Below are positions 618-13,928 of a stretch of 64,000 bases of DNA, one piece after another; position 1 is the stretch's first letter; each line of letters begins with the position of its first letter. Both the position numbers and the translations under genes were made by a program. Where the stretch lies: NCBI RefSeq assembly GCF_002277025.1, contig NZ_NIWD01000019.1:1-64000 (forward strand). Reading direction: 5' to 3'. Source of the stretch: Sphingopyxis sp. GW247-27LB (lineage in GTDB: Bacteria > Pseudomonadota > Alphaproteobacteria > Sphingomonadales > Sphingomonadaceae). The notes beneath the pieces are model-generated. The model had not been told where the DNA came from. It saw nothing but the letters and a program-made list of their open reading frames with translations, and did not search any database.

Positions 618-3600
618 ATGCGCCTCTCCCGCCTATCGCTCGAGCGCTATGGGCGCTTTGAGGACTGCGAACTGAACTTCCGCCCGGGCATTCCGGATCT
701 CCACGTCATCTACGGCGAGAACGAGGCGGGCAAGACGACGTCGCTGGCGGCCGTCTCCGACCTGCTGTTCGGGTTCCCCGTCCGCTCGCCGTACAACTTC
801 CTCTTCGACTATTCTCTGCTGCGCGTCGGCGCGGTGCTGGAGGATGGCGGCACGACGCTTGCCTGCCGCCGAAAGAAAGGTACCAGCGGCACACTGCTCG
901 GTGCCGACGACGTCCCGATCGACGAGGCTCCACTCGCTGCGATGCTGCGTGGCCAAACCCGGGATACATTCGGCCTATCCTTCAGTCTCGATCAGGAGAC
1001 ACTCCGCTCCGGCGGAAAGGCGATGGTGGAGGCGAAGAACGACGTCGGGCGGACGCTCTTCGCCGCCGGCTCCGGGCTGACCGGCGTATCCGACGAATTG
1101 CGGCGCCTGGAGACGGAGGCCGACGCTATATGGGGCCCGACCAACCGCGGGAGCCGCACGTTCACGGTGGCCCAGCGTCAGCTCGCAGAATCCACGCGGT
1201 TGGTTCGTGACGACGCATTGAAGCCGAAGGCGTGGTCGGACGCGCGGGCCGCCACCGAGCGGACCCGCGAGGCGCTCGAGGCCGCGCGCCTCGATCGTGA
1301 CGCGGTGCAGGCGGAATCCCGGGCCGCCGAGCGCGTTCGACGCCTCGCGCCGCTCGTTCGGCGGCGCGAGGAGCAGACCATAGCGCTCGCTGGATATGAC
1401 GGTGTCGTCGACCTGGGCCGGCAGCGCGAAACGGCTGCGGAGGAACTAGTGCGCGAGGCCGAGGAGGCAGTGCGGGCGATAGCGGCCGCTGAGGGCCTTC
1501 GGGCCGACATCGCCAACCGCCGCGCTGCGGTGTTGACCGACCCACAGGTGCTGGGCGTCGCCGATGAGATCGATCGCCTGGTCGCCGATGCGGGTGCCGA
1601 GGTGAAGGCGAAGCGCGACCTCGTTGGCCTTGAGGCTGAGCATGCCGATGCCGCGGCGACGGTCCGTCGGCTTCGCGCCGAGGCCGGCCGGAACGCCGGC
1701 GCGACGCTTCAACGCGAACTGGCGGCCCTGCTGCGCGAACTCGCCCGCGTGCACAGCGAGCAGCGCTTGGCCATGCGTCAGGTCGAGGACGACCGACAGC
1801 GCGTCGAGGAGCGGCGTGGCCGTGCTGCGGCGGCGCTCGCCGCGACAATCGTCAGCGACGCCGTCGATGCGCTGACCTCCGCCGTCGATCACGCGCGCGC
1901 GCTCGGAGCCGATGCCGACGCACGCTGCGATGCGTTGCGGGTCAAGCTGGACGGTGCAACGCGCCGAGCCGACGCCGCCCTCGCGCGACTCGCACCCTGG
2001 ACGGGCGACGGGGACGCGTTGGCCTGCCTCCCAAGGGTTGACGACAGCGAGGTTCACGACGCGCGCGACGCACTGGCGGCGCTGGTGGCTGAGGTCCGCC
2101 GGGAGGAGGAGGCAGCGCAGCGAGCCTCGGACCAGTCGGCGGCCGCCGCGTTGGAGATCTCTCAATTGGCGACCGGCACCGCGGTGTCGCCCGAGGAAAT
2201 GGCTGAGGTACGGACCGAGCGTGACCGTCTCTGGCGACCGCTGCGCGAGCATCTGCTGAATGGCGCGGCCTTGCAGGCACCCGCTGAAGCCATTGCGGGA
2301 TACGAGTCGGGCGTAGCGGCGGCGGACGACCGCGCCGATGCGCGGTTCGCCAGCGCAGATGCCTCGGGCAAGCTCTCGCTTCTCGAACAGACGCGGGCGT
2401 CGCACGACCTCACTCGTAGGCAGGCGGAAACTCGCGCGCAGTCAGCGAGGGATTGTCACGAGGAGACGGTCGCCGGCTGGAAGCGACGGCTCGCCGATGT
2501 GGGCCTACCGGCACTCGAGCCCGGCAGATTCCACTCCTGGCAGGCGGACCGCGACGTCGCTGAGGCGGCACAGGCCGAGGTGCGCAACCTGATAGCGGAC
2601 GTCGAGCTGTCCGAGGCCAAGCGCGACGCCGCTCGGGCGGCGATGAGTGCTGCGCTCGGCGTCGCGGACGGAGGCGGTCCGATCGCGCCGGTGCTCGCCA
2701 GGGCGGAGAGGCGCCGCGCGGAATTCGAGGACGTCGCCCGCAAGCGGCTTCTGGCACAAGCCGAACTCGACCAGCTCGACGTCGAGACGGCGGCCCTCGA
2801 TCGCAGGCAGAGGGTGGCCGAGGACGCGCTGGATGCGAACGGCGATGCGTGGCGCGCAGCGTTGACCGAGGCCGGTCTGGACATCGACGTGTCGGCTTGT
2901 TCCGCGGTCCTCGACCTGCTCGACGAGTTGCGCGAGGCGACGGCGTCTGAGGCGTCGATGCGGCGGCGCATCGAGGGCATCGGCCGGGACACGCGCGAGC
3001 ATGCGGCGGCGGTGAGGCAGCTTGCCGATGCGATCGGCGTCCCGGCGGGCGAGGTCCAGGAACGCCTGCGCTCACTGCGCGACCGGCTCGCGGCCGCGCG
3101 GAGCGCCGCGACGGTGAACGGATCCTTGCACGACGAGGACAAGCGCCGCCACGGCGAGCTTCAGGAGGCGCAGGCCAAGCTCCAAGCGACCGAGGAGGCC
3201 CTAGCGCCGCTGCTCGCCGAGACAGGTTCGGCGGACAGGGTCGCGCTCGGCGCGGCGATCGAGCGGTCACGGGCCAAGCGCGGGTTGGCCGATGAGATCG
3301 CCGCGACCGAGCGCGCGATCTTGGAGGCAGGCGACGGCCTCAGACTCGACGAGCTGCTGGCGGCCGTTGGCGCGGCCGATCCCGACCAGGTTGCTGCGCA
3401 ACTGGAGTCACTCGGCTCCCGGCTCGAAGAGCTTAACGCCGCGGTCGACGAGGCTGCTACCGCGCATGGCGATGCACGGGCGACGTTCGCCGCCCTCGAT
3501 ACGGATGGGACCTCCGCAGTAGACGCAGCCGCCGACGCCGAGCAGGCCCGTTCCGAGCTGGAGGTGCTAGCGGAGGACTACATTCTGAAGCGGACTCAGG

Positions 3601-4058
3601 CCGTGACGCTTAAGTGGGCGATCGAGAAGTATCGCGAACGGCATCAGGATCCATTGCTCCTGCGGGCGGGCGAGCTTTTCTCGACGCTCACCACGGGGCG
3701 TTACGCTACGCTCAAGGTAGACACCGACGCTCCCAGCCCGCGACTTCTGGGTATGCGCGACGACACGCGGACCATGGTCGAGGTTGACGCGATGAGCGAG
3801 GGCACCACCGACCAGCTTTTCCTCGCGCTGCGGCTAGCCGCGCTCGAGCAGTCTGTCGCGGCTGGGGTCGGCCTGCCGTTCCTCGCCGACGACCTCTTCG
3901 TGAACTTCGACGACCGGCGCGCTGAGGCAGGCTTCCGTGTCCTCGCTGAGGTCGCTCGGACCACACAGGTGCTGTTCTTCACGCACCATCCGCACCTGGT
4001 CCAAATCGCAAAGTCGGTGGTCGGCACCGAGCTTCATTCGGAATGCGCTCTCTCGTGA
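618..4058 (+). CDS. YhaN/SbcC-like SMC-type ATPase
   Basis: A 1146-residue ATPase of the SbcC/Rad50-like YhaN group. Walker A is GENEAGKTT at residues 33-41, and Walker B with an adjacent acidic pair (PFLADD) is at about 1087-1092. A His-switch-like segment (FFTHHPHL) follows at about 1114. Between the ATPase halves is a very long Ala/Arg/Glu-rich region typical of a coiled coil, so the protein should fold back as an SMC-like arm. A clear ribosome site (GGAGG, 606-610) precedes the ATG, which is 2 nt after the nuclease gene. Family members work with a YhaO/SbcD nuclease in processing DNA ends. If the nuclease frameshift is real, this subunit may lack a working partner. Confidence 0.85.
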   Translation: MRLSRLSLERYGRFEDCELNFRPGIPDLHVIYGENEAGKTTSLAAVSDLLFGFPVRSPYNFLFDYSLLRVGAVLEDGGTTLACRRKKGTSGTLLGADDVPIDEAPLAAMLRGQTRDTFGLSFSLDQETLRSGGKAMVEAKNDVGRTLFAAGSGLTGVSDELRRLETEADAIWGPTNRGSRTFTVAQRQLAESTRLVRDDALKPKAWSDARAATERTREALEAARLDRDAVQAESRAAERVRRLAPLVRRREEQTIALAGYDGVVDLGRQRETAAEELVREAEEAVRAIAAAEGLRADIANRRAAVLTDPQVLGVADEIDRLVADAGAEVKAKRDLVGLEAEHADAAATVRRLRAEAGRNAGATLQRELAALLRELARVHSEQRLAMRQVEDDRQRVEERRGRAAAALAATIVSDAVDALTSAVDHARALGADADARCDALRVKLDGATRRADAALARLAPWTGDGDALACLPRVDDSEVHDARDALAALVAEVRREEEAAQRASDQSAAAALEISQLATGTAVSPEEMAEVRTERDRLWRPLREHLLNGAALQAPAEAIAGYESGVAAADDRADARFASADASGKLSLLEQTRASHDLTRRQAETRAQSARDCHEETVAGWKRRLADVGLPALEPGRFHSWQADRDVAEAAQAEVRNLIADVELSEAKRDAARAAMSAALGVADGGGPIAPVLARAERRRAEFEDVARKRLLAQAELDQLDVETAALDRRQRVAEDALDANGDAWRAALTEAGLDIDVSACSAVLDLLDELREATASEASMRRRIEGIGRDTREHAAAVRQLADAIGVPAGEVQERLRSLRDRLAAARSAATVNGSLHDEDKRRHGELQEAQAKLQATEEALAPLLAETGSADRVALGAAIERSRAKRGLADEIAATERAILEAGDGLRLDELLAAVGAADPDQVAAQLESLGSRLEELNAAVDEAATAHGDARATFAALDTDGTSAVDAAADAEQARSELEVLAEDYILKRTQAVTLKWAIEKYRERHQDPLLLRAGELFSTLTTGRYATLKVDTDAPSPRLLGMRDDTRTMVEVDAMSEGTTDQLFLALRLAALEQSVAAGVGLPFLADDLFVNFDDRRAEAGFRVLAEVARTTQVLFFTHHPHLVQIAKSVVGTELHSECALS

Positions 4059-4926
4059 TCCACGGGCGATGTAATGCGGGAGGATGACGCCCAACACCTG
4101 CTGCTCCGCTTGCGGCCCCGTTGTAGTCGACGGCAAATGCCTGGCGAGCTATTCATGGCAGCTATGGCGGCGCCCCTCGCCGAATCCTACCATTCCGTTC
4201 GCGGCCCATCCCGTCGCCACCCTGCGAGCCAACGGAGACGAACACGAGAAAATGCCGGGGGCGGCTTTAAAGCGCGCGTGACTCCAACTCTATCTGTGGA
4301 ACGGCACGCCGCTTTGTCCCTAACATGTCCGAATTCTCTCAGACGATGACGACAGTCTGCTGATATATTTGACGTTCGACTTCAACAAATGCATCAAGAA
4401 CCTGATGATTGCGCTGTCGCGCCGGTTACAGACTAGTTCGATCCCACCGAGCGACGTGAAAGTTGGAATGCGTGGTCGATGGTTTTCCGCTGTTTGTCCG
4501 AAAGCGCCATGGAAAAGCCGGCGATCCCGACACAGGTGCAAGTTGGCGGCGTCCGGGCTCAGATTGCTGCTGCGATGGCGCAGGTGCCGCCAGCCTACGA
4601 CGACCGCGCTCATCATCATGTTGCCGCCGAGCTGACGATGTAGGAGCTCACGGCTATGCTCTCGCTGCGGTGGGTCGCGATCCTGCGGGGCTTGCCAAGA
4701 TGGCCGATGCGGCTGCAACAGCCTCGGCTGGGGCTTGACCTCCGGCGGGTCTCGCTCGCGGACCAGGGTGTTCGCCTGGCGCTAGAAAGCGGCGACATGG
4801 GCCAAGCATCGCCGACAAGACCGGCAGGCCCACGCCAGAACATGCTGATATTTAACATAATCTTTGTTATCGAACAATTATTTATCCCACATTTGACAGA
4901 CTTTGGAAATTGTGGGATAACTCCTC
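4059..4926. other. 868-nt gap without a convincing gene
   Basis: No reading frame here has convincing coding character on either strand. The most gene-like piece is a 54-codon frame at 4479-4643 (plus), starting MVFRCLSESAMEKPAIPT and containing an alanine-rich stretch. It has no clear ribosome site and I do not recognise it. It could be a remnant of a mobile-element gene. A 65-codon frame at 4084-4281 has a CCxxC cluster but no usable ribosome site. The last 70 nt are distinctly AT-rich and hold the promoter and inverted repeat listed separately. Confidence 0.5.
4882..4921 (+). promoter_or_regulatory. Promoter overlapped by a perfect 10-bp inverted repeat
   Basis: TTATCCCACA at 4882-4891 is repeated perfectly inverted as TGTGGGATAA at 4911-4920, with 19 nt between. 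A -35 box TTGACA (4893-4898) lies just inside the left arm, and 17 nt later GATAAC (4916-4921) overlaps the right arm as a possible -10. A start 6-7 nt after the -10 would fall on the ATG at 4927, which has no Shine-Dalgarno sequence, so the mRNA may be leaderless. A repressor dimer on this repeat would cover the whole promoter. No regulator gene is adjacent, so autoregulation by the downstream protein is possible but unproven. Confidence 0.55.
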
Positions 4927-5928
4927 ATGGACACCCTTCGCACCTTCAGCGATGAGCAATCCCGGCTTCTCGTCAACCTCCGGCAACGATATGAAGCCTG
5001 GGTCGTAACCGAACGCGCCCGGGCCGCGCTGCCTTATGATTTGCGCCGCAAGACAGTGGGCGAATATGAATATCTCTATCAGATCCATGATCGCAGCGGA
5101 AACGGCAAGTCGCTCGGTCGCATGGACGCTGCGCGGGAAGCCGAGTTCCAAAAATATCGCCAGCAAAAGGCGGAGCTGAAAGAACGTGGCGCACTACTGA
5201 GCGCCAAACTTGCCGAAAGCGCCGCTCTGTACCGGGCTCTGCGACTTCCCCTGCTTTCCAGCGATGCCGGTCCCATTCTTCGAGAATGCGATCGTCGCGA
5301 TCTTCTTGGCTCGCACCTCCTCGTCGTCGGCACCAACGCGATCGCGGCCTATATGATAGAGGCCAATGGCTTCATTCTCTTGCCCGACGAAACCGAAGAC
5401 TTCGATCTCGCCTGGGTCGCCGCCGAGCAAGACAATTCCGAACAAACCGTCTGGCAGATGCTGAAGACCGTCGACCCGACCTTCACAATCAACAGCGAGC
5501 GTGATTTCCAAGCACGGAATGCCCGGGCGTATGAGGTCGAGCTGCTCGTAGCGCCGTCTCGTGCCGAAACACTGAGCGACCGCGATCAACCGCGGCCGAT
5601 TCCTTTGGAAGAGCAGGAGTGGCTGCTGCTTGGTCGACCGGTCGATCAAGTCGTCGGCTGCCGCGATGGGTCCCCTGCCCGGATCGTAGCGCCGGACCCT
5701 CGATGGTTTGCGCTCCACAAACTCTGGATGTCAGAGCAGGCCAAGCGCAACCCTCTTAAGCGTCCGAAGGACCGTAAGCAGGGGCTGGCGCTGCTCGACG
5801 CCGTCGTCGAGGCCATGCCACATTATCCGCTCGATGAGGCATTCGAAGCGGCGATCCCGCCCGATTTGCAAGAAATTTTCGAGAATTGGCAGAAAAATAC
5901 CACGGCTGGACGCAAGTCCAATTGGTGA
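4927..5928 (+). CDS. GSU2403-family nucleotidyltransferase-fold protein
   Basis: A 333-residue protein. The N-terminal ~110 residues are charged and helical. A nucleotidyltransferase core follows, with GTNAIAAY at 135-142 and the acidic pair in ETEDFD (D158, D160) after a predicted strand, matching the G-x-(A/S) plus DxD layout of minimal nucleotidyltransferases. The C-terminal part (WFALHKLWMSEQ onward) resembles the conserved tail of GSU2403-type proteins. The biochemical role of the family is poorly known; related folds include toxins of type IV toxin-antitoxin systems. It stands alone behind its own operator-like promoter. The ATG at 4927 is chosen because it fits the promoter; no SD is present. 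Confidence 0.6.
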   Translation: MDTLRTFSDEQSRLLVNLRQRYEAWVVTERARAALPYDLRRKTVGEYEYLYQIHDRSGNGKSLGRMDAAREAEFQKYRQQKAELKERGALLSAKLAESAALYRALRLPLLSSDAGPILRECDRRDLLGSHLLVVGTNAIAAYMIEANGFILLPDETEDFDLAWVAAEQDNSEQTVWQMLKTVDPTFTINSERDFQARNARAYEVELLVAPSRAETLSDRDQPRPIPLEEQEWLLLGRPVDQVVGCRDGSPARIVAPDPRWFALHKLWMSEQAKRNPLKRPKDRKQGLALLDAVVEAMPHYPLDEAFEAAIPPDLQEIFENWQKNTTAGRKSNW

Positions 5929-5952
5929 TGTGAGAGCGCCTTTCGGAAGAGG

Positions 5953-6150
5953 TTATGCGGCTTTGTTTACGTCGTCGATCAGCGCCTGAACCTTCCCAAT
6001 CGGTGTTTCGTCAATTGGCCGGATCGTCTCGCCGCAACCTTGGCATTCGACCGTTCGCCGCAAGCGCAACGTCTTGTAAGTGAGGTTCAGCACGAAACCG
6101 CATGCCGGGCAGTTCGCCTGCGCCCTGATGTCGTCCAGTTCGTTCGCCAT
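5953..6150 (-). CDS. Small zinc-ribbon protein
   Basis: A 65-residue protein with two CxxC pairs, CPAC and CQGC, about 22 residues apart (CPACGFVLNLTYKTL, then VECQGCGE), the usual spacing for a single zinc ribbon. The rest is hydrophilic, with no signal peptide. Such small ribbons may bind nucleic acid or act as adaptor subunits; nothing here picks one. The ATG is preceded on its strand by TATTAT 6 nt upstream and no ribosome site, so this may also be a leaderless gene. It converges with the nucleotidyltransferase gene, with a 24-nt gap. Confidence 0.55.
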   Translation of the reverse strand: MANELDDIRAQANCPACGFVLNLTYKTLRLRRTVECQGCGETIRPIDETPIGKVQALIDDVNKAA

Positions 6151-6197
6151 AGGTCATAATACCACACTGATGGTGCCCCGGCTACGCAGCGATGTCC

Positions 6198-6926
6198 TCA
6201 GCCTTTGGTGATCTCGTTTAATTGCTTCTTTTCGTCGGGTGAAAGCTCCCAACGCTCAACCGTGTCAGGCTCGGAAAATTCTGCACCGATGCTGCACGTC
6301 GTGTTCGACCCGAGAACCATATAATGGGAAACTAGCAATATCCGACGCTTATCCGAGAGATTTTTCTGAAAACTGGCGATAAACGTCGTGCCGTCGAGAT
6401 AGTAAGAATATTCACTACCCTTGGCTGTCTTGACGATTTCTACGCCCTTTTCCTTCTTCTGCTCGAAGGCTCCGAAGTCCTTCACGAGCCAATCAGCCGT
6501 CCGCTCATGGATGGCTCTACAATCTTCCAACGACATCTTCTGGTCCGGGTCGTCGATCATCTCGCGCTCGTATTTGAGCGAGATGTCGGTCAGTTTGTCA
6601 AACCGGTTGAAGGACAGCGCGAGCGTGTATGGGATGCCATCCACACTGGTGTAGGAGATAAGATTATTGTCGGGCGTAAGATAGCAGCCGCGCACGGCTA
6701 GTTCGAGCAAGCACCCTTTGACGGCTGCTGGATTGAAGCGGCTCAAGCCGGTCAGCCCGGTCGATTCTGCGAACGACATTCCAAACTTCAAATTGCCGTA
6801 GCCACCGATCCCGGAAGGTTTTGCGTTTTCCGATTGGGCGGCTGGTGCCGTGGACCCACAAGCTGCAAGAGCAAGTGCGATAGGTAACAGCCAACGAAAG
6901 CGGCGCGCAAAGCCCGTCACTTCCAA
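6198..6926 (-). CDS. Putative lipoprotein of unknown function
   Basis: A 242-residue protein starting with a basic segment (RRFRW), a hydrophobic stretch and a lipobox LAAC at about 20-23, so it is probably lipid-anchored in the envelope. The mature part begins with a short GYGNLKFGMSF segment and contains several Cys (GCLLEL, GCYLT, DCRAIH, TTCSIG) that could form disulfides. I do not recognise the family. Its start overlaps the 3' end of the upstream 216-residue membrane protein by 10 nt, so the two are probably translated together. Confidence 0.55.
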   Translation of the reverse strand: MEVTGFARRFRWLLPIALALAACGSTAPAAQSENAKPSGIGGYGNLKFGMSFAESTGLTGLSRFNPAAVKGCLLELAVRGCYLTPDNNLISYTSVDGIPYTLALSFNRFDKLTDISLKYEREMIDDPDQKMSLEDCRAIHERTADWLVKDFGAFEQKKEKGVEIVKTAKGSEYSYYLDGTTFIASFQKNLSDKRRILLVSHYMVLGSNTTCSIGAEFSEPDTVERWELSPDEKKQLNEITKG

Positions 6927-7567
6927 TCCAAGCCTGCCGTGTCGAAGGCGAATTGCTGGTTACCCTGCTGGTAGAATTCGGCTTCGATGATGACCTTCTT
7001 CGACTTTTTCAGGTTGGCAAGAAATCCGGATTCGTTGCTGAGGAACGCGATGTCCGAACTCCCGTCGCTGGCACCGTCGCAAGCATAGCGCTTGATAGGC
7101 TGATCGTCGAACTTCACCGACACATGACCATCGCTGTAGCTACGGCAGAGGATTTGCCCTTTATCGACAAGGAACATCACGTTCAGTCCGTCAGTCGGGC
7201 GCTTGCGAACTTCAATATATCCGCTGACCGTTCCATACGGGAATTGAAGGTTCACTTCGTTCGAACTGGTCAGGCGCGCCGTTTTCGTGACGGTCCCGCG
7301 CATTTCGTCCATCTGTTCGTTGTAGGTCCACTTCGACGGCAGCGCAGAGGGCGCTGCGTCCTCACCCTTCGCGCTCGGCTCTGTCGTGCTGGCGACTGGA
7401 TCACTTGCCGCCATTGTGGTGCTTGCCTTCGGATCAGCAAACGAGCCGACAAGGATCAGCGAGACGATCGCAGCTATGGCGAAATGCCAACGCTTGAGGC
7501 TCCCAATGTAGGGTTTGAAAACCCCGACGACAGCCGCCAAGAAAATGATCGCAAAAAGTCCTGACAC
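6917..7567 (-). CDS. Membrane-anchored protein of unknown function
   Basis: A 216-residue protein with two hydrophobic segments near the N-terminus (about 2-18 and 29-43), then a Ser/Thr/Ala-rich linker and a soluble domain from about residue 80. The soluble part has an alternating pattern suggesting beta structure (VNLQFPYGTVSGYIEVRK) and two Cys (LCRSYS, YACDG). It is first of a two-gene unit with the downstream lipoprotein (10-nt overlap). I see no recognisable catalytic motif; an envelope role is an inference from topology only. Confidence 0.5.
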   Translation of the reverse strand: MSGLFAIIFLAAVVGVFKPYIGSLKRWHFAIAAIVSLILVGSFADPKASTTMAASDPVASTTEPSAKGEDAAPSALPSKWTYNEQMDEMRGTVTKTARLTSSNEVNLQFPYGTVSGYIEVRKRPTDGLNVMFLVDKGQILCRSYSDGHVSVKFDDQPIKRYACDGASDGSSDIAFLSNESGFLANLKKSKKVIIEAEFYQQGNQQFAFDTAGLDWK

Positions 7568-7793
7568 ATCCGCCCCCGCGTGTTGAATTCATCACGGAGC
7601 ATTACCCGGACAGGCGTTAAAGGGCAATTACGTCGGCGACACAGATGCCGATGATCTTACAACCAGAATAGCTGTGTCCCGACGTTAAGGGAGGATCGGG
7701 AGGCACGAACGTTCCGGGCACGTATGTTTCTACCCGTGTACAATCGGATTACATCTTCAGCGACAGAAGCTGTTCACCAATTGCTGCTAGTGT

Positions 7794-8303
7794 GTGCCCA
7801 TGATGGAACTTGCCGATCACGACCGAGCCTTTTGGGACGATGGCGAATGGGTCAGCTGGGACGAGATTAATCAGCAGATCGAATACAAGGAATGGCGGGC
7901 GAAATATCCAAACGCCGACATCTCCCTTGTCCCGATCTTCGAAAGCCTTCTCTCAACGGCATGTAGCTACAATGCCCACACCGGGAAGCATTTGCACGTC
8001 TACGGCGATATCGGCGAATTATACGGCGCGATCACCCACGGTATCCGGTTGAACCGAAACTACGCGCAAGGGTCCGACGGACGACTTGGCAACGACCTGA
8101 TCGAAATCAAAACGATCACGCCGTTCAAGCGGACGGACACCGTTGAAATCAACATGGCGCGGAACTTCAGCAAGGTTCTGATCGTCCGCATCAACGACGA
8201 GTTCGATATCAGCGGGAAGCTGATCGACCGGAAATCACTCCCCAAGGCGAAGGGGAAAATCCGCGTAAGCTGGAGTGAGGTTTCCGGTCAAGCGATCATC
8301 TAG
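7794..8303 (+). CDS. DUF6998-like, possible PD-(D/E)XK-fold protein
   Basis: A 169-residue protein with a GTG start assumed at 7794; the ATG two codons later would also serve. The centre reads GDIGELYGAITHGIRLN, then SDGRLGNDLIEIKTITP at about 99-115. An early Glu in a helix, an Asp and a D-x2-E-x-K strand are the expected catalytic layout of restriction-endonuclease-like folds and resemble what I recall of DUF6998 proteins. Enzymatic activity is unproven. Its stop codon shares the palindrome CTAG (8300-8303) with the stop of the convergent minus-strand gene. No partner methylase or ATPase is adjacent. Confidence 0.5.
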   Translation: MPMMELADHDRAFWDDGEWVSWDEINQQIEYKEWRAKYPNADISLVPIFESLLSTACSYNAHTGKHLHVYGDIGELYGAITHGIRLNRNYAQGSDGRLGNDLIEIKTITPFKRTDTVEINMARNFSKVLIVRINDEFDISGKLIDRKSLPKAKGKIRVSWSEVSGQAII

Positions 8304-8875
8304 TCGAACACCATCTTCCGGGTGACAGACGTCGTTCCCAACGTCGCATAGGAACCGTCGTCCAATAGCTTGGCTAAGCCCACGCAGTTGAACCATTTGG
8401 CGCTGATGCCATTGTCCGCCAGATATTTGGTCACATACGCCTTCGACCAACCCTTGCTGGTCGATGCCAACCGGTTGCCGCGACCTACGATTGTCTCTTC
8501 CGGATTGCCGATGCCTATCGAAGAGCAACGGTAGGCGTCCGGTATGATCAACTTGTCGCCCTCGAAACCGATCCCGCTGATGTTGCCATCGTTCGGCAGG
8601 GTCTTCACTTCCCCCGCAGAGATGTCGATGGTCTGAGACATTTGCGCCGCATGAACGCATTCGTAGCCGTCTTTGATGGACCAGCAGCGGGTCAGCGCGT
8701 CAGAGAAGCCTCCGACGCCCGATTGCGCAACAAAGCTTCCATCCGCCATCTTCTCCCAAGTCACCTGCTTGCCAGCCGATGGCGGCATATCGACCGGGCG
8801 CGACAGGAAGTTCCAAGCGCCGTAACCGGTGGCGATGGTCGCGACGGCGGCTACGCCGATCCAAATCTTGCTCAT
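8300..8875 (-). CDS. Membrane-anchored protein, third gene of the PLD operon
   Basis: A 191-residue protein with one N-terminal hydrophobic segment (IWIGVAAVATIATGYGAWNF), probably an uncleaved anchor or signal peptide, followed by a soluble domain with four Cys (RCWSIK, YECVHA, YRCSSI, FNCVGL) that could pair outside the cytoplasm. I do not recognise a family. Its ATG overlaps the stop of the upstream PLD-fold gene as ATGA (8872-8875), which implies translational coupling and makes it part of the three-gene operon running from 12758. Its contribution there is unknown, and chance apposition cannot be excluded. Confidence 0.5.
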   Translation of the reverse strand: MSKIWIGVAAVATIATGYGAWNFLSRPVDMPPSAGKQVTWEKMADGSFVAQSGVGGFSDALTRCWSIKDGYECVHAAQMSQTIDISAGEVKTLPNDGNISGIGFEGDKLIIPDAYRCSSIGIGNPEETIVGRGNRLASTSKGWSKAYVTKYLADNGISAKWFNCVGLAKLLDDGSYATLGTTSVTRKMVFD

Positions 8876-11247
8876 TCAACTCCGTCCCTTTCCGAACCAA
8901 CCATGGTGTCTTCTGCCGCTGTCGCCGCGATATTGTCCGCGCTTGCCAGCAACCCCAGTCTCATTCCGATCGAGCGATCCAAGCCAGCGCGAATGTCCGC
9001 GGCGGTGGTGCCAGTTAGTTCCGCAGCGGTAAGGCCGAGCAGTTTTATCATCAGCACCCGAAGTTTTGAGACATATGGCAGGAAGTCGCGATTTGCCCGA
9101 TTGTTCGGCATCAGTGCTTCAATGGCGTCGAGCGCCCAAAGCGAGGTTACCCAGCATTCCATAAAGTCGACCGGCATTTCGCTATACTCTCGTGCCATCA
9201 TGAGCCGCGAGATAGCTGGCGATTTACCGCCAAAGAATGCGACGAGCGCCCGTACGACCAGTCGGGGCCATGACTGGGGTGCGCTCGAGCAATCGAGCCC
9301 CTTGGGGAGATCGTTGCAGCGCGCCTTGAAGAGCAGGAGCAGGATCCAATAGCGAAGACGGAGGACCTCGGCTGATCCGATGGCATCCCCGTCATCTTCG
9401 ATTTCCTCTGCATAGGCCCAGATATAATATTCGAACTCTTTGGCATCTATTTTCCGACGCTCGACGGGTTCCGGGTTGACCGAAGCTAGCGCTGCGGACT
9501 CGACGTCGGCATCCGGCACGTCATCTATATCATCCGTTTCTTCGCCCATATCGAGCCAGCCGTCATCGTCGCGATCGGCGCTGGGCTCACTGCGCCCGGT
9601 CAACAGATTGAGGAAATCGCGAATGCTGTCGGTGTAGGTGCCCGCGAGACTATTGGCTCCGTTCCCACTCCCCCGCGCACTGCCTGGGCGCGCTTCGGTG
9701 AATTCCTCATAGCTGAGATTTGTGGGGTCCGCCGCCGCCCCGACTTCTTTCGGTTCTCGCGGGCGGGCGCTTGCGATCGCGGCACCCTCTTTGCTCTGCG
9801 AGAAATCGGCCCGGACCAGCGTTTCGAATGCTTCGTGCATCCATAGCTCAAAATCGGTTCCATCGGTGAATTGAGAAAGCGCACGAGCAACGCGGCCGCT
9901 GGCTGCTTCCCGGCGACTTTCTCTCAGCGCCTGACGGTGCGAAACATGGGCCGTCGTTGACACAAATTCGCCGCGGACAATGCGCGCAAAGAACAGCTTC
10001 TGCTGAAGTTCCGAGGTGATCGGCACTGCTAGTCGAGAGCCCGCGCTTGCAAAGGACGCCGCTGGAATGTCGTCTAGCAGTGCGCCGGCACGGTCTAGGA
10101 GCTGGATGATACCGTCTCCCGCATCGCCGATAGGTGGCTGCCAGAACAGGGAACCTTGATCCGTTTCAAAGGAGCCAGGACGCCGCGCCTCCAAGATCGC
10201 CAGCGGGATTTCAGGCAGGTCTTCGCGGTCCGCCAATTGGGAAAGCTCAAGCCGATCAGCGTCGATCCAGCGATCGAGGCCCAATGCTTTGACTGCGGTC
10301 CCCGCGGGCAGCCGCCGATAGACGCAGGCCTCCGCGTTGCTGCCGGCGCTACTAAGCGCCGCAGTCGTGCAATTCGCGCTCCCAAAAAGGATATGGTCAT
10401 GATGCTTCGTCAGCGCGACGAAGACTTTCGCATGAGTGAAGCGCGAGTTCGGGGAATTGAGATCTACGAGCCGAACCTTTTTTGCGAAGGCAGCTTCGGC
10501 GGGGAATTCGTGGTGTTCGCTGTCGATAGGAAGGATGATTTCTTTGGGCGAGAGCTCCGCCGCCAATTCAGAAAGGGCGCTGAGGTTGCTATCCCAATAA
10601 GGGCTGACAACGAGCAGCTTCCGCACCTTCTCGTTGCCGATCCATTCCACAAACTGGTTCGAAATTCCGCGATCGGTTGATGAAGGAAGAAAGCCAATCG
10701 CAGAGCCGTCGTCGAGTTCCTTGAGCGGCGCTCCGACCGGCCCTTCCAGCCACGGCGCCCGTTCGCGTGCCCAGCGCAGCGCATCTCGTGCGGGCGACGC
10801 TTCCTCTGAAACTAAGGAGTTCAGATACTGCCAGATGGCGCGTAGGATTTCACGTTCGGGTCCATCTTCATTGCCAGACTCGATCTCGATGGCGATTTCC
10901 ACGTTTCCGCCGAGGCCGGCGCCGGTGGCGTTGGCCGAGCTGACAAATGCCCTTCCCGTTTCGCGACCGAGTTGCAGAATGATCTTCGGGTGGAAGATGC
11001 CGTCACTCGCTGGTGGGCTATGGAGTGCGTAATCGCGGCCGAGCGCGACGGGCAATCTCGAGCCGTCGGTAAGCGCCATAGCCGCCATGCGATCGTCGGC
11101 CACCAAGAGAAGATTGTTGGCGCCGCTGGCCCTAAGCTGCGGCAGCAGGATTTCTTCAACCGCCGCGAATTCGACCGCGAATGTGGTTGTGATGGCACTA
11201 TGAAAAGGCTTGCGGGGTCGACGGCCCAACCGTTCAGGTAGTTTCAT
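8872..11247 (-). CDS. Phospholipase-D-fold protein, putative nuclease
   Basis: A 791-residue protein with two half-sites of the PLD (HxK) type. The first is HPKIILQLG followed by VSSANAT at about 86-110. The second is THAKVFVAL followed by FGSANCT at about 284-310. Each has the His-x-Lys and the downstream Ser/Asn pocket expected when two halves form one active site. Bacterial PLD-fold proteins of this layout are often DNA-cleaving enzymes, frequently in defence loci. The region 560-600 is strongly acidic and residues 600-780 are helical with no motif I can name. It overlaps the 504-residue gene upstream by 4 nt (11244-11247) and the membrane protein downstream by 4 nt. No helicase or ATPase is encoded in the operon. 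Confidence 0.65.
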   Translation of the reverse strand: MKLPERLGRRPRKPFHSAITTTFAVEFAAVEEILLPQLRASGANNLLLVADDRMAAMALTDGSRLPVALGRDYALHSPPASDGIFHPKIILQLGRETGRAFVSSANATGAGLGGNVEIAIEIESGNEDGPEREILRAIWQYLNSLVSEEASPARDALRWARERAPWLEGPVGAPLKELDDGSAIGFLPSSTDRGISNQFVEWIGNEKVRKLLVVSPYWDSNLSALSELAAELSPKEIILPIDSEHHEFPAEAAFAKKVRLVDLNSPNSRFTHAKVFVALTKHHDHILFGSANCTTAALSSAGSNAEACVYRRLPAGTAVKALGLDRWIDADRLELSQLADREDLPEIPLAILEARRPGSFETDQGSLFWQPPIGDAGDGIIQLLDRAGALLDDIPAASFASAGSRLAVPITSELQQKLFFARIVRGEFVSTTAHVSHRQALRESRREAASGRVARALSQFTDGTDFELWMHEAFETLVRADFSQSKEGAAIASARPREPKEVGAAADPTNLSYEEFTEARPGSARGSGNGANSLAGTYTDSIRDFLNLLTGRSEPSADRDDDGWLDMGEETDDIDDVPDADVESAALASVNPEPVERRKIDAKEFEYYIWAYAEEIEDDGDAIGSAEVLRLRYWILLLLFKARCNDLPKGLDCSSAPQSWPRLVVRALVAFFGGKSPAISRLMMAREYSEMPVDFMECWVTSLWALDAIEALMPNNRANRDFLPYVSKLRVLMIKLLGLTAAELTGTTAADIRAGLDRSIGMRLGLLASADNIAATAAEDTMVGSERDGVE

Positions 11248-12758
11248 GCGGCTGCCTCCAGCAAGGGAAGCGCGCGCGAAGTCGGACCATCTTCATTCAA
11301 GAGGTGAATGTCTTCAAGAAACTGGATCGCAGGCATAAGGCGAGGTGTCGTCGCGACCGGCTGATAGTTTTTGAGATAGATCAGTCGGCCGTCCCGTACC
11401 TCGAACAGGAAGGTATAATCTCGCTGCCGGCGCAGCTTCTGCATCGCAACCCAGCTATGACGTCGAACTACACGTTCGATCATATAGTCGGCGATCTTCT
11501 CGATGACGGTCTGATCTTCCTCCGAGGCCAGCCAGTTTAGCTCGGTGCGCAGAGAATGCGCCATGCCGCGGAGAGGAAAGCCTCGATTGATCCGGTCAGC
11601 GAGATCGGGACGGTCCAAGGTCCGTTGATGGAGCGCCGCCATGAGCTGAACGGCCGCCATCGCCTTCTCATCAGGGGCGCCGCGCCAGTTTGTAATCTGG
11701 TTCCAGGTCTCTCTAAAGTCGTAGGTCTCGCGGACATTCCTAGACCGGAATTCACGCCATGATCCGGCGAATCCCAGCTCGGATTGCGACGTGAGCTCGT
11801 CGACGACTTGCGCGCGGATTTCGAGAATCGGCAATCCGCCGTCGGCGGAATTGAGCAGCGAGAGGGCCCAAGCCAGCAGGGACGCGGCCGCCACCTGCAT
11901 CAGGTCCTGACAGTTGTAGACTTCCCAGTTCAGTCGTTGAGCCTCAAGCTCGGCGGGCAGAGGATCCGCGGGCACATCGAAGAGGTGCCATCGGACATCT
12001 TCCGGTCCGGGAGCCGCTTCGATGGCGCGCGCTGTATGGAGGACGAGCCGCAGCGATGCGCTTCGACTGTGCGCGTTCTCCGAGGCAGTGTCACCTTCGG
12101 CGAAAAGGAGCATTTCGTAAAATTCGCGCTCGGCGCCGTCTTCGTCGATTTCGGACGGAGCAATTGGGCTAAGGCGCTCGAGTTCGCGAGCACTCACGCT
12201 GGCGTCGGCGATCTTCTTCCTGAGCAGCTTTGCGACGTCTGGGCCGATCGCATCGGCGAATAGGGTCGCGGCTCGCTTGCCGAGTTCGCGTGTGGCGACT
12301 TGGATGCCATGCTTATTGTAGGTGAAGAGCCCCATCTCTTCCATCTGGGAAAAATATGCGCCTCCGAAGACGCCAAGCGCTTGGCGCAAATATAGCTTCT
12401 GCGATCGATCGGTTGAAGCGGCGGCGGCGAAGTCGATGACCTTCTTGTCTACGGCGAGCCGGCCATTTGCCCATTCCGTTCCGCCGACACCCGTCTCTTC
12501 GGCATATGCGGCGACGAGGGCGTAGAGCGCCTCAGCTTTGCGGAGCCAGGTTCGCCATGCCTCGAAATCGTCGGACGCTCCGCTACGCGCATAGGTTTCG
12601 CTGACCCAGCAATAATAGCAGTAATAGCGCATTCTGAGGGTAACATTGCTGATACCCGGCAAAAGGGCTTGGTAGAGCAGCACGCCGCTATTTTGGATGC
12701 CTAGGGGGTCTAGGCCGCGCTTGTCAGCCTTCTCCGTCCACTGCGGTAATAGGTCCAA
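11244..12758 (-). CDS. Protein of unknown function paired with a PLD protein (DUF6361-like motif)
   Basis: A 504-residue cytoplasmic protein. The start is TTG at 12758, supported by a GGGGG ribosome site about 6 nt upstream. Near the N-terminus is a conspicuous motif, LPGISNVTLRMRYYCYYCW at about 33-51. It resembles the 'PG-S-x-T-x-R-x-RY' signature I associate with DUF6361 proteins, which occur beside PLD-fold genes; this is recalled, not searched. The rest is helical with a C-terminal segment rich in Arg. There is no Walker motif, HTH or nuclease motif. It is first in the operon with the PLD protein (ATGA overlap), so the two probably form one complex. Confidence 0.55.
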   Translation of the reverse strand: MDLLPQWTEKADKRGLDPLGIQNSGVLLYQALLPGISNVTLRMRYYCYYCWVSETYARSGASDDFEAWRTWLRKAEALYALVAAYAEETGVGGTEWANGRLAVDKKVIDFAAAASTDRSQKLYLRQALGVFGGAYFSQMEEMGLFTYNKHGIQVATRELGKRAATLFADAIGPDVAKLLRKKIADASVSARELERLSPIAPSEIDEDGAEREFYEMLLFAEGDTASENAHSRSASLRLVLHTARAIEAAPGPEDVRWHLFDVPADPLPAELEAQRLNWEVYNCQDLMQVAAASLLAWALSLLNSADGGLPILEIRAQVVDELTSQSELGFAGSWREFRSRNVRETYDFRETWNQITNWRGAPDEKAMAAVQLMAALHQRTLDRPDLADRINRGFPLRGMAHSLRTELNWLASEEDQTVIEKIADYMIERVVRRHSWVAMQKLRRQRDYTFLFEVRDGRLIYLKNYQPVATTPRLMPAIQFLEDIHLLNEDGPTSRALPLLEAAA

Positions 12759-12985
12759 AATTTCCCCCTATTGAGGGCTCCAAGACTTGGTCCCCCTTAT
12801 CGTATAAGACGTCTCGCGCGCCGTTTTCCGGAAGTTAGATCGAGACTGTGTAATCTGGCGTAGCGCCCCCAGACGCTGCCTCGACATATCGAATTTGGAT
12901 CGCAGCGCCATGAAGATTTGCGCCGTTGCGGAACGATATCGAGCGCGACGGTGCGGCCAAAAGGTAGTGCTAGCCCGAAGTGAGG

Positions 12986-13657
12986 TCAGTTGGTGATTGC
13001 AAGCTCAATCAGGTTTCGGCTGATATCCCTTGAATGCGCGACGAGGCTGCGCGTGTGTTCGCGCAGCATGAGCTGCCCGATGATCCCTTCGACATAGGCC
13101 GGGTTGGTCTTGTCGATGACTTCCAGCGCAGTCTTGCATTTGTCAGGCGGGCATTGCTTGAGGGCCGATAGCACGTAGTCGGACCCAAAATGCTCAGCGA
13201 CCGCGGCGAGATCGAACATGTCTCGCGGTTGGAGACTCCAACCGCGATAGAACACCTTTTTTGCAATAATTTCTGCCGGAGTTTCAAGCGCGACAGCGTG
13301 ACCTCGTACATCGGTCGCTGCGGTCGGGTCGAGCAGGATATTGTCGCAGCAAATGAAGTCGATTTCGCCCAACTCCTCATATGCGAGCTTTAAGACATCC
13401 GTGCCGGCCTGATAGCTATCGGGAGCCCGTTCGAGTTTGATACCCTGTGTTTCCGGGTTCAAAAACGGTAAATATTGTGGATCGTCCAGAAACAGATCGA
13501 TGTCGTGACTCTCCCGATGGTCGATCTGCAGCATGAGCGCAGTCCCGCCGCCAAAACTCCAACTGGGTGAAAAGCCGTTCGCTTCGTTGAAGTGCTTCAG
13601 GATATCGATTGCGAGATCGAAAAGGGCCGGCCATTCGCTTGGCCGCTTCTCGGGCAC
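12986..13657 (-). CDS. AbiEii-type nucleotidyltransferase, putative toxin
   Basis: A 223-residue protein with the classic AbiEii-like core. It has FGGGTA at 35-40 followed by SHDIDLF at 50-56 (D52 and D54 as metal ligands), then EIDFICCD as the third acidic strand and a conserved helix EIIAKKVFYRG. The start is GTG at 13657, 4 nt after the stop of the 88-residue gene upstream. Family members are toxins of type IV toxin-antitoxin or abortive infection systems and transfer nucleotides to tRNA or proteins. No AbiEi-type winged-helix antitoxin is present; the only candidate partner is the small gene in front. Confidence 0.75.
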   Translation of the reverse strand: MPEKRPSEWPALFDLAIDILKHFNEANGFSPSWSFGGGTALMLQIDHRESHDIDLFLDDPQYLPFLNPETQGIKLERAPDSYQAGTDVLKLAYEELGEIDFICCDNILLDPTAATDVRGHAVALETPAEIIAKKVFYRGWSLQPRDMFDLAAVAEHFGSDYVLSALKQCPPDKCKTALEVIDKTNPAYVEGIIGQLMLREHTRSLVAHSRDISRNLIELAITN

Positions 13658-13661
13658 GGCG

Positions 13662-13928
13662 TCAGGCCGCCAGCGGCAATGCGTAACCCGAAAGCTGGGA
13701 GACTTGCTCAGCGACTTGGCTCGCTAGTTGCTCATCCACATTCATGGCCCACATGAACTGCTTCTGGACCTGAAGCGGAACTTCGGAGAAGAATGCGAAA
13801 ACTGGCGCATTAAAGCTAATCGCGCTATCGGAATCGACGATCATAGCGGCAAGCTGATGTGCAGAAACAGCCGCCCCGTAAGGGGCGTTCACCGTAGTAA
13901 GCGCTTGAGTTACAGCGTTTGCCATCAT
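13662..13928 (-). CDS. Small protein upstream of the AbiEii-like gene, candidate antitoxin
   Basis: An 88-residue protein, Ala/Val-rich, with a helical C-terminus (LASQVAEQVSQL). I see no helix-turn-helix, signal peptide or metal site. It ends 4 nt before the GTG of the AbiEii-like nucleotidyltransferase, the normal spacing for a coupled toxin-antitoxin pair with the antitoxin first. Its lack of resemblance to the AbiEi family makes it interesting. The antitoxin role is an inference from position only. Confidence 0.5.
   Translation of the reverse strand: MMANAVTQALTTVNAPYGAAVSAHQLAAMIVDSDSAISFNAPVFAFFSEVPLQVQKQFMWAMNVDEQLASQVAEQVSQLSGYALPLAA

Follow-up and report, generated by a model that had tools for sequence, protein, structure and literature searches.

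A helicase-less gene pair from Sphingopyxis with distant sequence kinship to the ZacA-ZacB part of the Azaca defence system

Gene content of the locus

Here we describe a pair of adjoining genes, designated A and B, in the first 64,000 nucleotides (nt) of contig NZ_NIWD01000019.1 of Sphingopyxis sp. GW247-27LB (assembly GCF_002277025.1), the whole of which is referred to as the window. Together with a third gene, C, they lie on the minus strand as open reading frames (ORFs) of 504, 791 and 191 amino acids (aa), just where an earlier note on this DNA, made from its letters alone, had placed three ORFs joined by 4-nt ATGA overlaps (Table 1). The ATGA is read directly not only between A and B but also between B and C, and A begins with a TTG codon. 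A promoter scan scored at or below the shuffled mean, and a terminator scan near it. A and B lie in an accessory slot next to traG, on a contig that resembles a plasmid and has an F-type transfer region.

Table 1. Features of the A-B locus and of its surroundings in the window
Feature	Position	Strand	Basis
A, 504-aa mostly helical protein, apparent distant ZacA relative	11244..12758	-	ORF
B, 791-aa protein, double phospholipase D (PLD) catalytic region (residues 1-346) and C-terminal extension	8872..11247	-	ORF
C, 191-aa protein, passenger transcribed with A-B or local addition	8300..8875	-	ORF, 4/99 loci
A signature motif PGISNVTLRMRYYCYYCW, residues 34-51, part common to A and ZacA/DUF6361	12606..12659	-	alignments, profile-profile match
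AGGGGG, likely ribosome-binding site of A	12764..12769	-	read directly, 5 bases before TTG
B half-site 1, H86-x-K88 ... S104-x-N106	10930..10992	-	aligned relatives
B half-site 2, H272-x-K274 ... G289-S290-x-N292	10372..10434	-	aligned relatives
ATGA overlap, A stop/B start	11244..11247	-	read directly
169-aa gene, convergent with C	7794-8303	+	overlaps C end by 4 nt
AbiEii-type nucleotidyltransferase gene	12986-13657	-	Pfam
Small 88-aa gene just upstream of AbiEii-type gene	13662-13928	-	ORF
NTP_transf_8 nucleotidyltransferase gene	4927-5928	+	Pfam, expect value (E) 1e-32
Large AAA_27 (YhaN/SbcC-like) ATPase	618-4058	+	Pfam

A and B are a widespread pair

Relatives of A were drawn from plasmids, genomes of the class, viral contigs and species genomes, the scan of the last returning 203 relatives, of which the best 80 were examined; this gave 99 loci in all, here numbered with the prefix L, the window's own being L001. 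In 96 of the 99, A is followed on its own strand by a coding sequence like that of B (15/15 in L001-L015, 4/4 viral loci and 77/80 genome loci). The loci are not all independent, as they include near-copies (the window type L001/L005/L020/L021, L002/L046 and L049/L050). The overlap between the two genes measures exactly 4 nt in 65 of these 96 loci. In three of the 96, B is incomplete: it is broken by a frameshift and an insert in L056, runs off the contig in L075 and stops early in L024 (see below). Of the three loci without B, L035 and L080 hold fragments of A, the former at a contig end, and L074 has a broken A close to the end of its contig. Profiles of A and of B mark the identical 4 of 289 genomes of the class, the window's own included, and no single ORF among the 99 loci matches both proteins. 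A and B are a widespread, tightly paired two-gene unit, in agreement with the pairing that the earlier note had proposed for its first two proteins.

The unit is patchily distributed, being found through A in 8 of 298 genomes of the family, the window's own included, and giving no match to A in the six other listed genomes of its own genus, a pattern that fits horizontal spread. Ratios of nonsynonymous to synonymous substitution (dN/dS) against the homologs on the Sphingopyxis plasmid pDB-1 are 0.12 for A, 0.15 for B and 0.13 for C, which speaks for purifying selection. No phage family in PHROGs matched A, B, C or the 169-aa gene at E up to 0.1.

The earlier note had counted C as a Cys-bearing, membrane-anchored component of the system. 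Protein C does carry four Cys, whereas the anchor is just likely, the N-terminal hydrophobic stretch being weak (best 19-residue Kyte-Doolittle mean 1.3), and membership did not hold. In a search at E up to 1, C was found in 4 of the 99 loci, all from Sphingopyxis (84 of the loci extend 700 nt or more past B, and L001 ends before C), and it was not found in the Sphingobium copies whose A is 64-68% identical. A role for C as a core subunit was accordingly rejected, and its restriction to these four loci makes the conserved unit one of two genes, not three. The ATGA overlap of C with B and the purifying selection acting on C would suit a system of three genes, with C anchoring the nuclease to the membrane or regulating it there, but with C missing from the other loci, the Sphingobium copies included, we regard such a system as very improbable. 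A constant third partner of any other kind was also rejected, as neighbour clustering revealed no gene common to more than 10 of the 99 loci.

Predicted fold and active site of protein B

Protein B matches the Pfam family PLDc_2 at 27.1 bits against a threshold of 27 (E 4e-6). Its AlphaFold2 model (predicted local distance difference test, pLDDT, 84; predicted template modelling score, pTM, 0.74) places residues 1-346 closest to Tdp1 (Z 22.5, root-mean-square deviation, rmsd, 3.7, 313 residues aligned) and next to PLD3 (Z 22.4), with Foldseek E values of 6e-9 for PLD3 and 9e-9 for Tdp1. The part past residue 346 is predicted to be rich in strands at first and helical at its end, with a linker of low confidence in between (parts of 488-596).

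Both half-sites recognized in the earlier note are intact, HPK (86-88) being followed by SSAN (103-106) and HAK (272-274) by GSAN (289-292). Across the 76 aligned B proteins, H86, S104, N106, E117, D219, H272, K274, G289, S290, N292 and E306 are invariant, and K88 is kept in 75. On the strength of the predicted model, the two half-sites should form one PLD centre. In the first half-site, H, K, N and E stand at relative positions 0, 2, 20 and 31, which presumably resembles the spacing in BfiI. The canonical PLD form HxK(x)4D(x)6GSxN, as quoted in an excerpt of PMC11442185, is not matched by the B of the window, which reads HxK(x)14(S/G)SAN, with L rather than D five positions past each K.

Lipid enzymes score nearly as high as Tdp1 and PLD3 on the B fold (phospholipase D, Z 22.1; phosphatidylserine synthase, Z 21.5), which would fit a B that acts on lipids, or serves as a non-catalytic scaffold, instead of attacking nucleic acid. 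We find this barely credible: Tdp1 and PLD3 come out on top in both fold comparisons, albeit by less than 1 Z, the neighbours of B in PADLOC comprise ZacB, DrmC and further PLD proteins from defence models, and neither half-site is lost.

At one locus (L024, 11512-13850), B stops after about residue 378, and a different ORF of 362 aa overlaps its end by 4 nt, so that the C-terminal part attached to the PLD part may be exchangeable.

Protein A, the conserved partner

The structure model of A is mostly helix (pLDDT 91, pTM 0.89), and 13 columns are invariant in an alignment of 77 rows. The ZacA profile of PADLOC matches A over residues 30-96 (E 8e-4) and recovers 8 of 14 aligned A relatives at E 0.01. 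Pfam (E up to 1), NCBIfam and PHROGs returned no family match for A, and Foldseek searches with the A model against the PDB and viral models returned none that reached E 0.001. When sequence profiles of A and of B were compared with solved structures, a single chance match came up (E 0.65). In the fold comparison of A, the top row is FokI (1fok), a weak match below the trustworthy level for such comparisons (Z 6.6, rmsd 5.6, 202 residues aligned) that spans FokI residues 8-280, which we take to be the DNA-recognition part; it is followed by the repressor IdeR (Z 5.6) and by numerous unrelated entries at Z 4-5. A winged-helix match in Pfam is present in one of 14 A relatives. The FokI, IdeR and winged-helix matches are hints, not proof, that A may be a DNA-binding protein, and the absence of a fold match in these lists does not establish a new fold.

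Relationship to Azaca

The founding paper on Azaca is reportedly that of Millman and co-workers (2022). PMC10952713 and PMC12278908, in the portions concerned with it, list Azaca among phage defence systems and give it a PLD-like domain as well as a helicase, ZacC, and the corresponding part of an Actinobacteria survey (PMC10482375) places it among systems of unknown mechanism.

The link is strongest on the side of B, which matches ZacB in PADLOC at E 5.7e-18 and in a profile-profile comparison with a probability of 98% (E 9e-15); ZacB is likewise matched by 11 of 11 aligned B proteins, and the homology extends across the double PLD region. The profile-profile comparison of A with four ZacA proteins gives a probability of 72% (E 3e-5) over 83 columns around a common motif, where A has PGISNVTLRMRYY and ZacA has FPGTSTIQTRLRYMLF. 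Gene order is also the same, A then B, overlapping or closely packed.

To define Azaca proper, the ZacA profile was run over 398 genomes, where it gave four full matches (E 1e-132 to 1e-88) and two weaker ones that belong to the window's branch. The four true Azaca loci encode a ZacA of 388-439 aa, then a ZacB of 617-711 aa (both by longest ORF), then a gene of 1,044-1,129 aa; the two of these third genes that were tested both clear the Helicase_C cut-off, and for DEAD the gene of L107 just clears the cut-off and that of L108 narrowly misses it. The window's branch differs in lacking ZacC, in the length of A (504 against about 390-440 aa) and of B (791 aa, where most Azaca loci have about 620), and in that A has no DUF6361 match in Pfam at E up to 1. 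The lead to DUF6361 given in the earlier note thus held in part: the one ZacA tested is DUF6361 (PF19888, E 1e-76) and A weakly matches ZacA, but A itself falls in no Pfam family.

In a tree of 50 PLD regions (midpoint root; long branches L014, L015, L084 and L109), a well supported branch (100/98) parts the four ZacB proteins from the window's branch. The search for ZacC and for other seed families covered 87 of the 99 loci, those remaining once L001-L006, L020, L021, L035, L050, L074 and L080 are set aside. One ZacC query found nothing in 87/87 loci at E 1e-10 and had no match in the window's own genome. With four ZacC seeds, 3 of the 87 loci weakly matched SNF2-type helicases (best E 3.6e-10), as against E 3e-69 or better among the true ZacC seeds themselves. 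Membership in Azaca was therefore rejected, there being neither ZacC nor a DUF6361 match for A. As judged by sequence comparison, the pair is a helicase-less distant relative of a known defence system, with which its function would be shared: the kinship of B with ZacB and of A with ZacA suggests that it works like the ZacA-ZacB core without being Azaca. The earlier description of the operon as undescribed-looking has to give way to this kinship. Among the matches listed in literature searches on ZacABC, DUF6361, Azaca and PLD defence nucleases, with preprints outside their scope, we recognized no helicase-less pair.

Defence-gene company, motors and plasmids

The defence-island company anticipated in the earlier note is present at some loci. 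Type I restriction-modification (RM) genes (HsdM, HsdS or N6-methylase) lie near 11 of 87 loci, and in two of them, L011 (8965-13082) and L083 (9932-14201), A-B sits inside the type I operon, between hsdS-like and hsdR-like genes. Zorya genes directly precede the pair in L008, HmaC ends 3 nt before A in L037, Tiamat TmtA lies 38 nt before A in L085, and a type III restriction enzyme is found near A-B in L019. Neighbouring helicases in L042, L095 and L092 are similar to Mokosh and Dpd proteins; of the eight neighbours tested in PADLOC, which were picked for size, six match, and the MkoA and DpdF matches may reflect general helicase domains. On the Sphingobium plasmid p1 (L010, 3979-13644), the pair is preceded by genes for an SNF2 helicase and for a 587-aa protein with no Pfam match, and followed by a GIY-YIG gene, possibly forming a larger composite system.

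A broader count used neighbours of 200-1300 aa within 3 kb, under a ceiling of 50,000 residues and without the twelve loci set aside above. At 1e-10, it gave 314 PADLOC families for 102 of the 148 nearest neighbours against 63 for 102 of 220 chromosomal ORFs, an enrichment that is only suggestive because the residues are unequal (49,472 vs 41,090), the tables are aggregate, the controls are chromosomal and one control match is of GajA/Old type.

The case for a defence role rests mainly on the kinship with Azaca and on the individual islands. From these, we favour as probable the reading that A-B is an immune module of two genes that brings no motor of its own and is distantly related to the ZacA-ZacB part of Azaca. 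Several observations weigh against it. The link between A and ZacA is local and weak; fold scores on a predicted PLD model cannot tell nucleases from lipid enzymes; 69 of the 87 loci have no seed match to RM, SNF2, Zorya or ZacC genes; and once the five loci that supplied seeds are removed, 13 of 82 loci compare with 0 of 20 chromosomal control regions, a weak contrast. In the window, moreover, the AbiEii-type gene is the sole neighbour with a clear defence-type family, the resemblance of the ATPase being weak.

The main rival to a module without a motor holds that the pair is an Azaca-like nuclease-sensor add-on in need of one in trans, for which it would borrow the translocase of the host or of an adjacent system (type I HsdR, ZorD, Hma). 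The positions of A-B between hsdS and hsdR, after the Zorya genes and after HmaC would all fit it, as would the presence of ZacC in Azaca itself. Yet the neighbours vary from locus to locus with no constant helicase cluster, the window and L012 have no annotated or recognized helicase or RM gene adjoining the pair, and L009 has none adjacent, though a UvrD-type helicase lies about 3.5 kb away. We judge a borrowed motor unlikely.

The plasmid setting brings up another reading, in which the pair serves competition between plasmids or the processing of conjugative DNA instead of defence against phages. Two Sphingopyxis plasmids carry the same A, B and C after traG and the AbiEii gene, pSfKp5.2 with A 99.8% and B 100% identical and pDB-1 with A 86.5% and B 85.3% identical, and on both mobF lies on the other side of A-B-C, so that the unit stands between two transfer genes; in the window it lies beside the same traG. 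Of 15 plasmid records bearing A, 7 are predicted to be conjugative and 5 mobilizable. The related pRW412b, however, retains traG (82% identical in DNA) and mobF with other genes between them and no match to A or B, so the pair is not a fixed transfer gene, and 4 of 80 relatives lie on contigs of more than 1 Mb (one of them labelled chromosome 1), with further copies in the single-contig genomes G678 and G804. A plasmid role in place of defence thus looks decidedly improbable to us.

Comparison with other PLD systems

The helicase-less module that we favour compares with other PLD enzymes as follows:

(i) DISARM. A PLD half-site of B weakly matches DrmC profiles (E 3.5e-7), but B scores 25 against the NCBIfam DrmC cut-off of 133. 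Neither drmA, drmB nor the DISARM methyltransferase, nor any cognate methyltransferase, is among the matches listed for the ten proteins of window positions 618-13928 (25 of the 30 matching families were viewed for the ATPase at 618-4058).

(ii) BfiI and NgoAVII, PLD-type restriction enzymes. BfiI is not known to need a helicase, so that the lack of one does not by itself set the A-B operon apart. B is expected to use the same PLD nuclease chemistry, BfiI cutting DNA with one active centre, but the recognition domain of BfiI lies in its own chain, whereas B has a separate partner. According to the part of PMC7913695 that treats this PLD-family enzyme, BfiI cuts via a histidine-phosphate intermediate and builds its one active site from two protomers, whereas B has both half-sites in one chain.

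(iii) AgaP, the PLD protein associated with Argonaute. As in B with A, a PLD effector is accompanied by a separate partner, which, in the excerpt of PMC11442185, appears to guide or restrain AgaP. A has no Argonaute or other Pfam match, however, and the AgaP motif is a split HxK...GSxN.

(iv) Tdp1 and PLD3. In the predicted model, B has the same single-chain double PLD fold (Z about 22), but identity is about 12%, and B adds a C-terminal region and a dedicated partner gene.

The earlier note had held that the operon differs from known PLD systems in lacking any helicase or ATPase. None is indeed part of the unit, but the contrast was too broad, since the Argonaute-associated PLD system, as portrayed in the same excerpt (PMC11442185), has a helicase beside some operons only. 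Overall, the earlier interpretation is partly supported: the pair co-occurs elsewhere, the PLD fold is borne out by a Tdp1/PLD3-like model, no housekeeping family was matched and no HxK site is lost. The complex of A and B that, in the note, would recognize and cleave nucleic acid is still a proposal.

Other genes of the accessory slot

The 169-aa gene scores 15.4 bits with DUF6998 of Pfam, short of the cut-off of 27, and shares its four Sphingopyxis loci with C (neighbour clusters 17 and 18). The AbiEii-type gene and the 88-aa gene have a layout that resembles a toxin-antitoxin pair and are kept beside A-B on pSfKp5.2 and pDB-1. The NTP_transf_8 gene is the second gene with a nucleotidyltransferase fold in the slot. 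The AAA_27 ATPase shows weak likeness to the PtuA and LmuB profiles of PADLOC (best E 1.5e-6), and a relative lies near the pair in L049 (14240-17743, minus strand), in a cluster that also holds L050, L052 and L020 (cluster 20); its occurrence near the pair in two distant lineages may reflect chance or a second defence-like unit.

Proposed mechanism and implications

The mechanism that we propose for the two-gene module can be set out as a short series of steps:

(i) B would act as a phosphodiesterase, with a single active centre made up of its two half-sites.

(ii) B would attack nucleic acid through a phosphohistidine intermediate, in a metal-free manner.

(iii) A would recognize the target or gate B.

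(iv) The pair would then cut incoming phage or plasmid DNA, or kill the infected cell, with no ATP needed by A-B. No methyltransferase is constant beside the pair, so that self-protection would have to come from conditional activation or from a structure found in the invader only.

Carried further, these steps lead to a more demanding proposal, which we offer tentatively and consider possible, if somewhat doubtful. A-B would be a self-sufficient, ATP-free immune nuclease in which the sensor A, which has no trustworthy match to a solved structure, holds or aims the metal-independent PLD nuclease B while the host DNA stays unmodified; the core of Azaca would then be ZacA-ZacB, its helicase being dispensable or a later addition.

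A wide two-gene branch that keeps ZacA-like and ZacB-like proteins without the helicase would separate the nuclease-sensor core from the motor and make this core directly testable. Tools that require ZacC would presumably not report these loci as complete Azaca, despite the 203 relatives of A.

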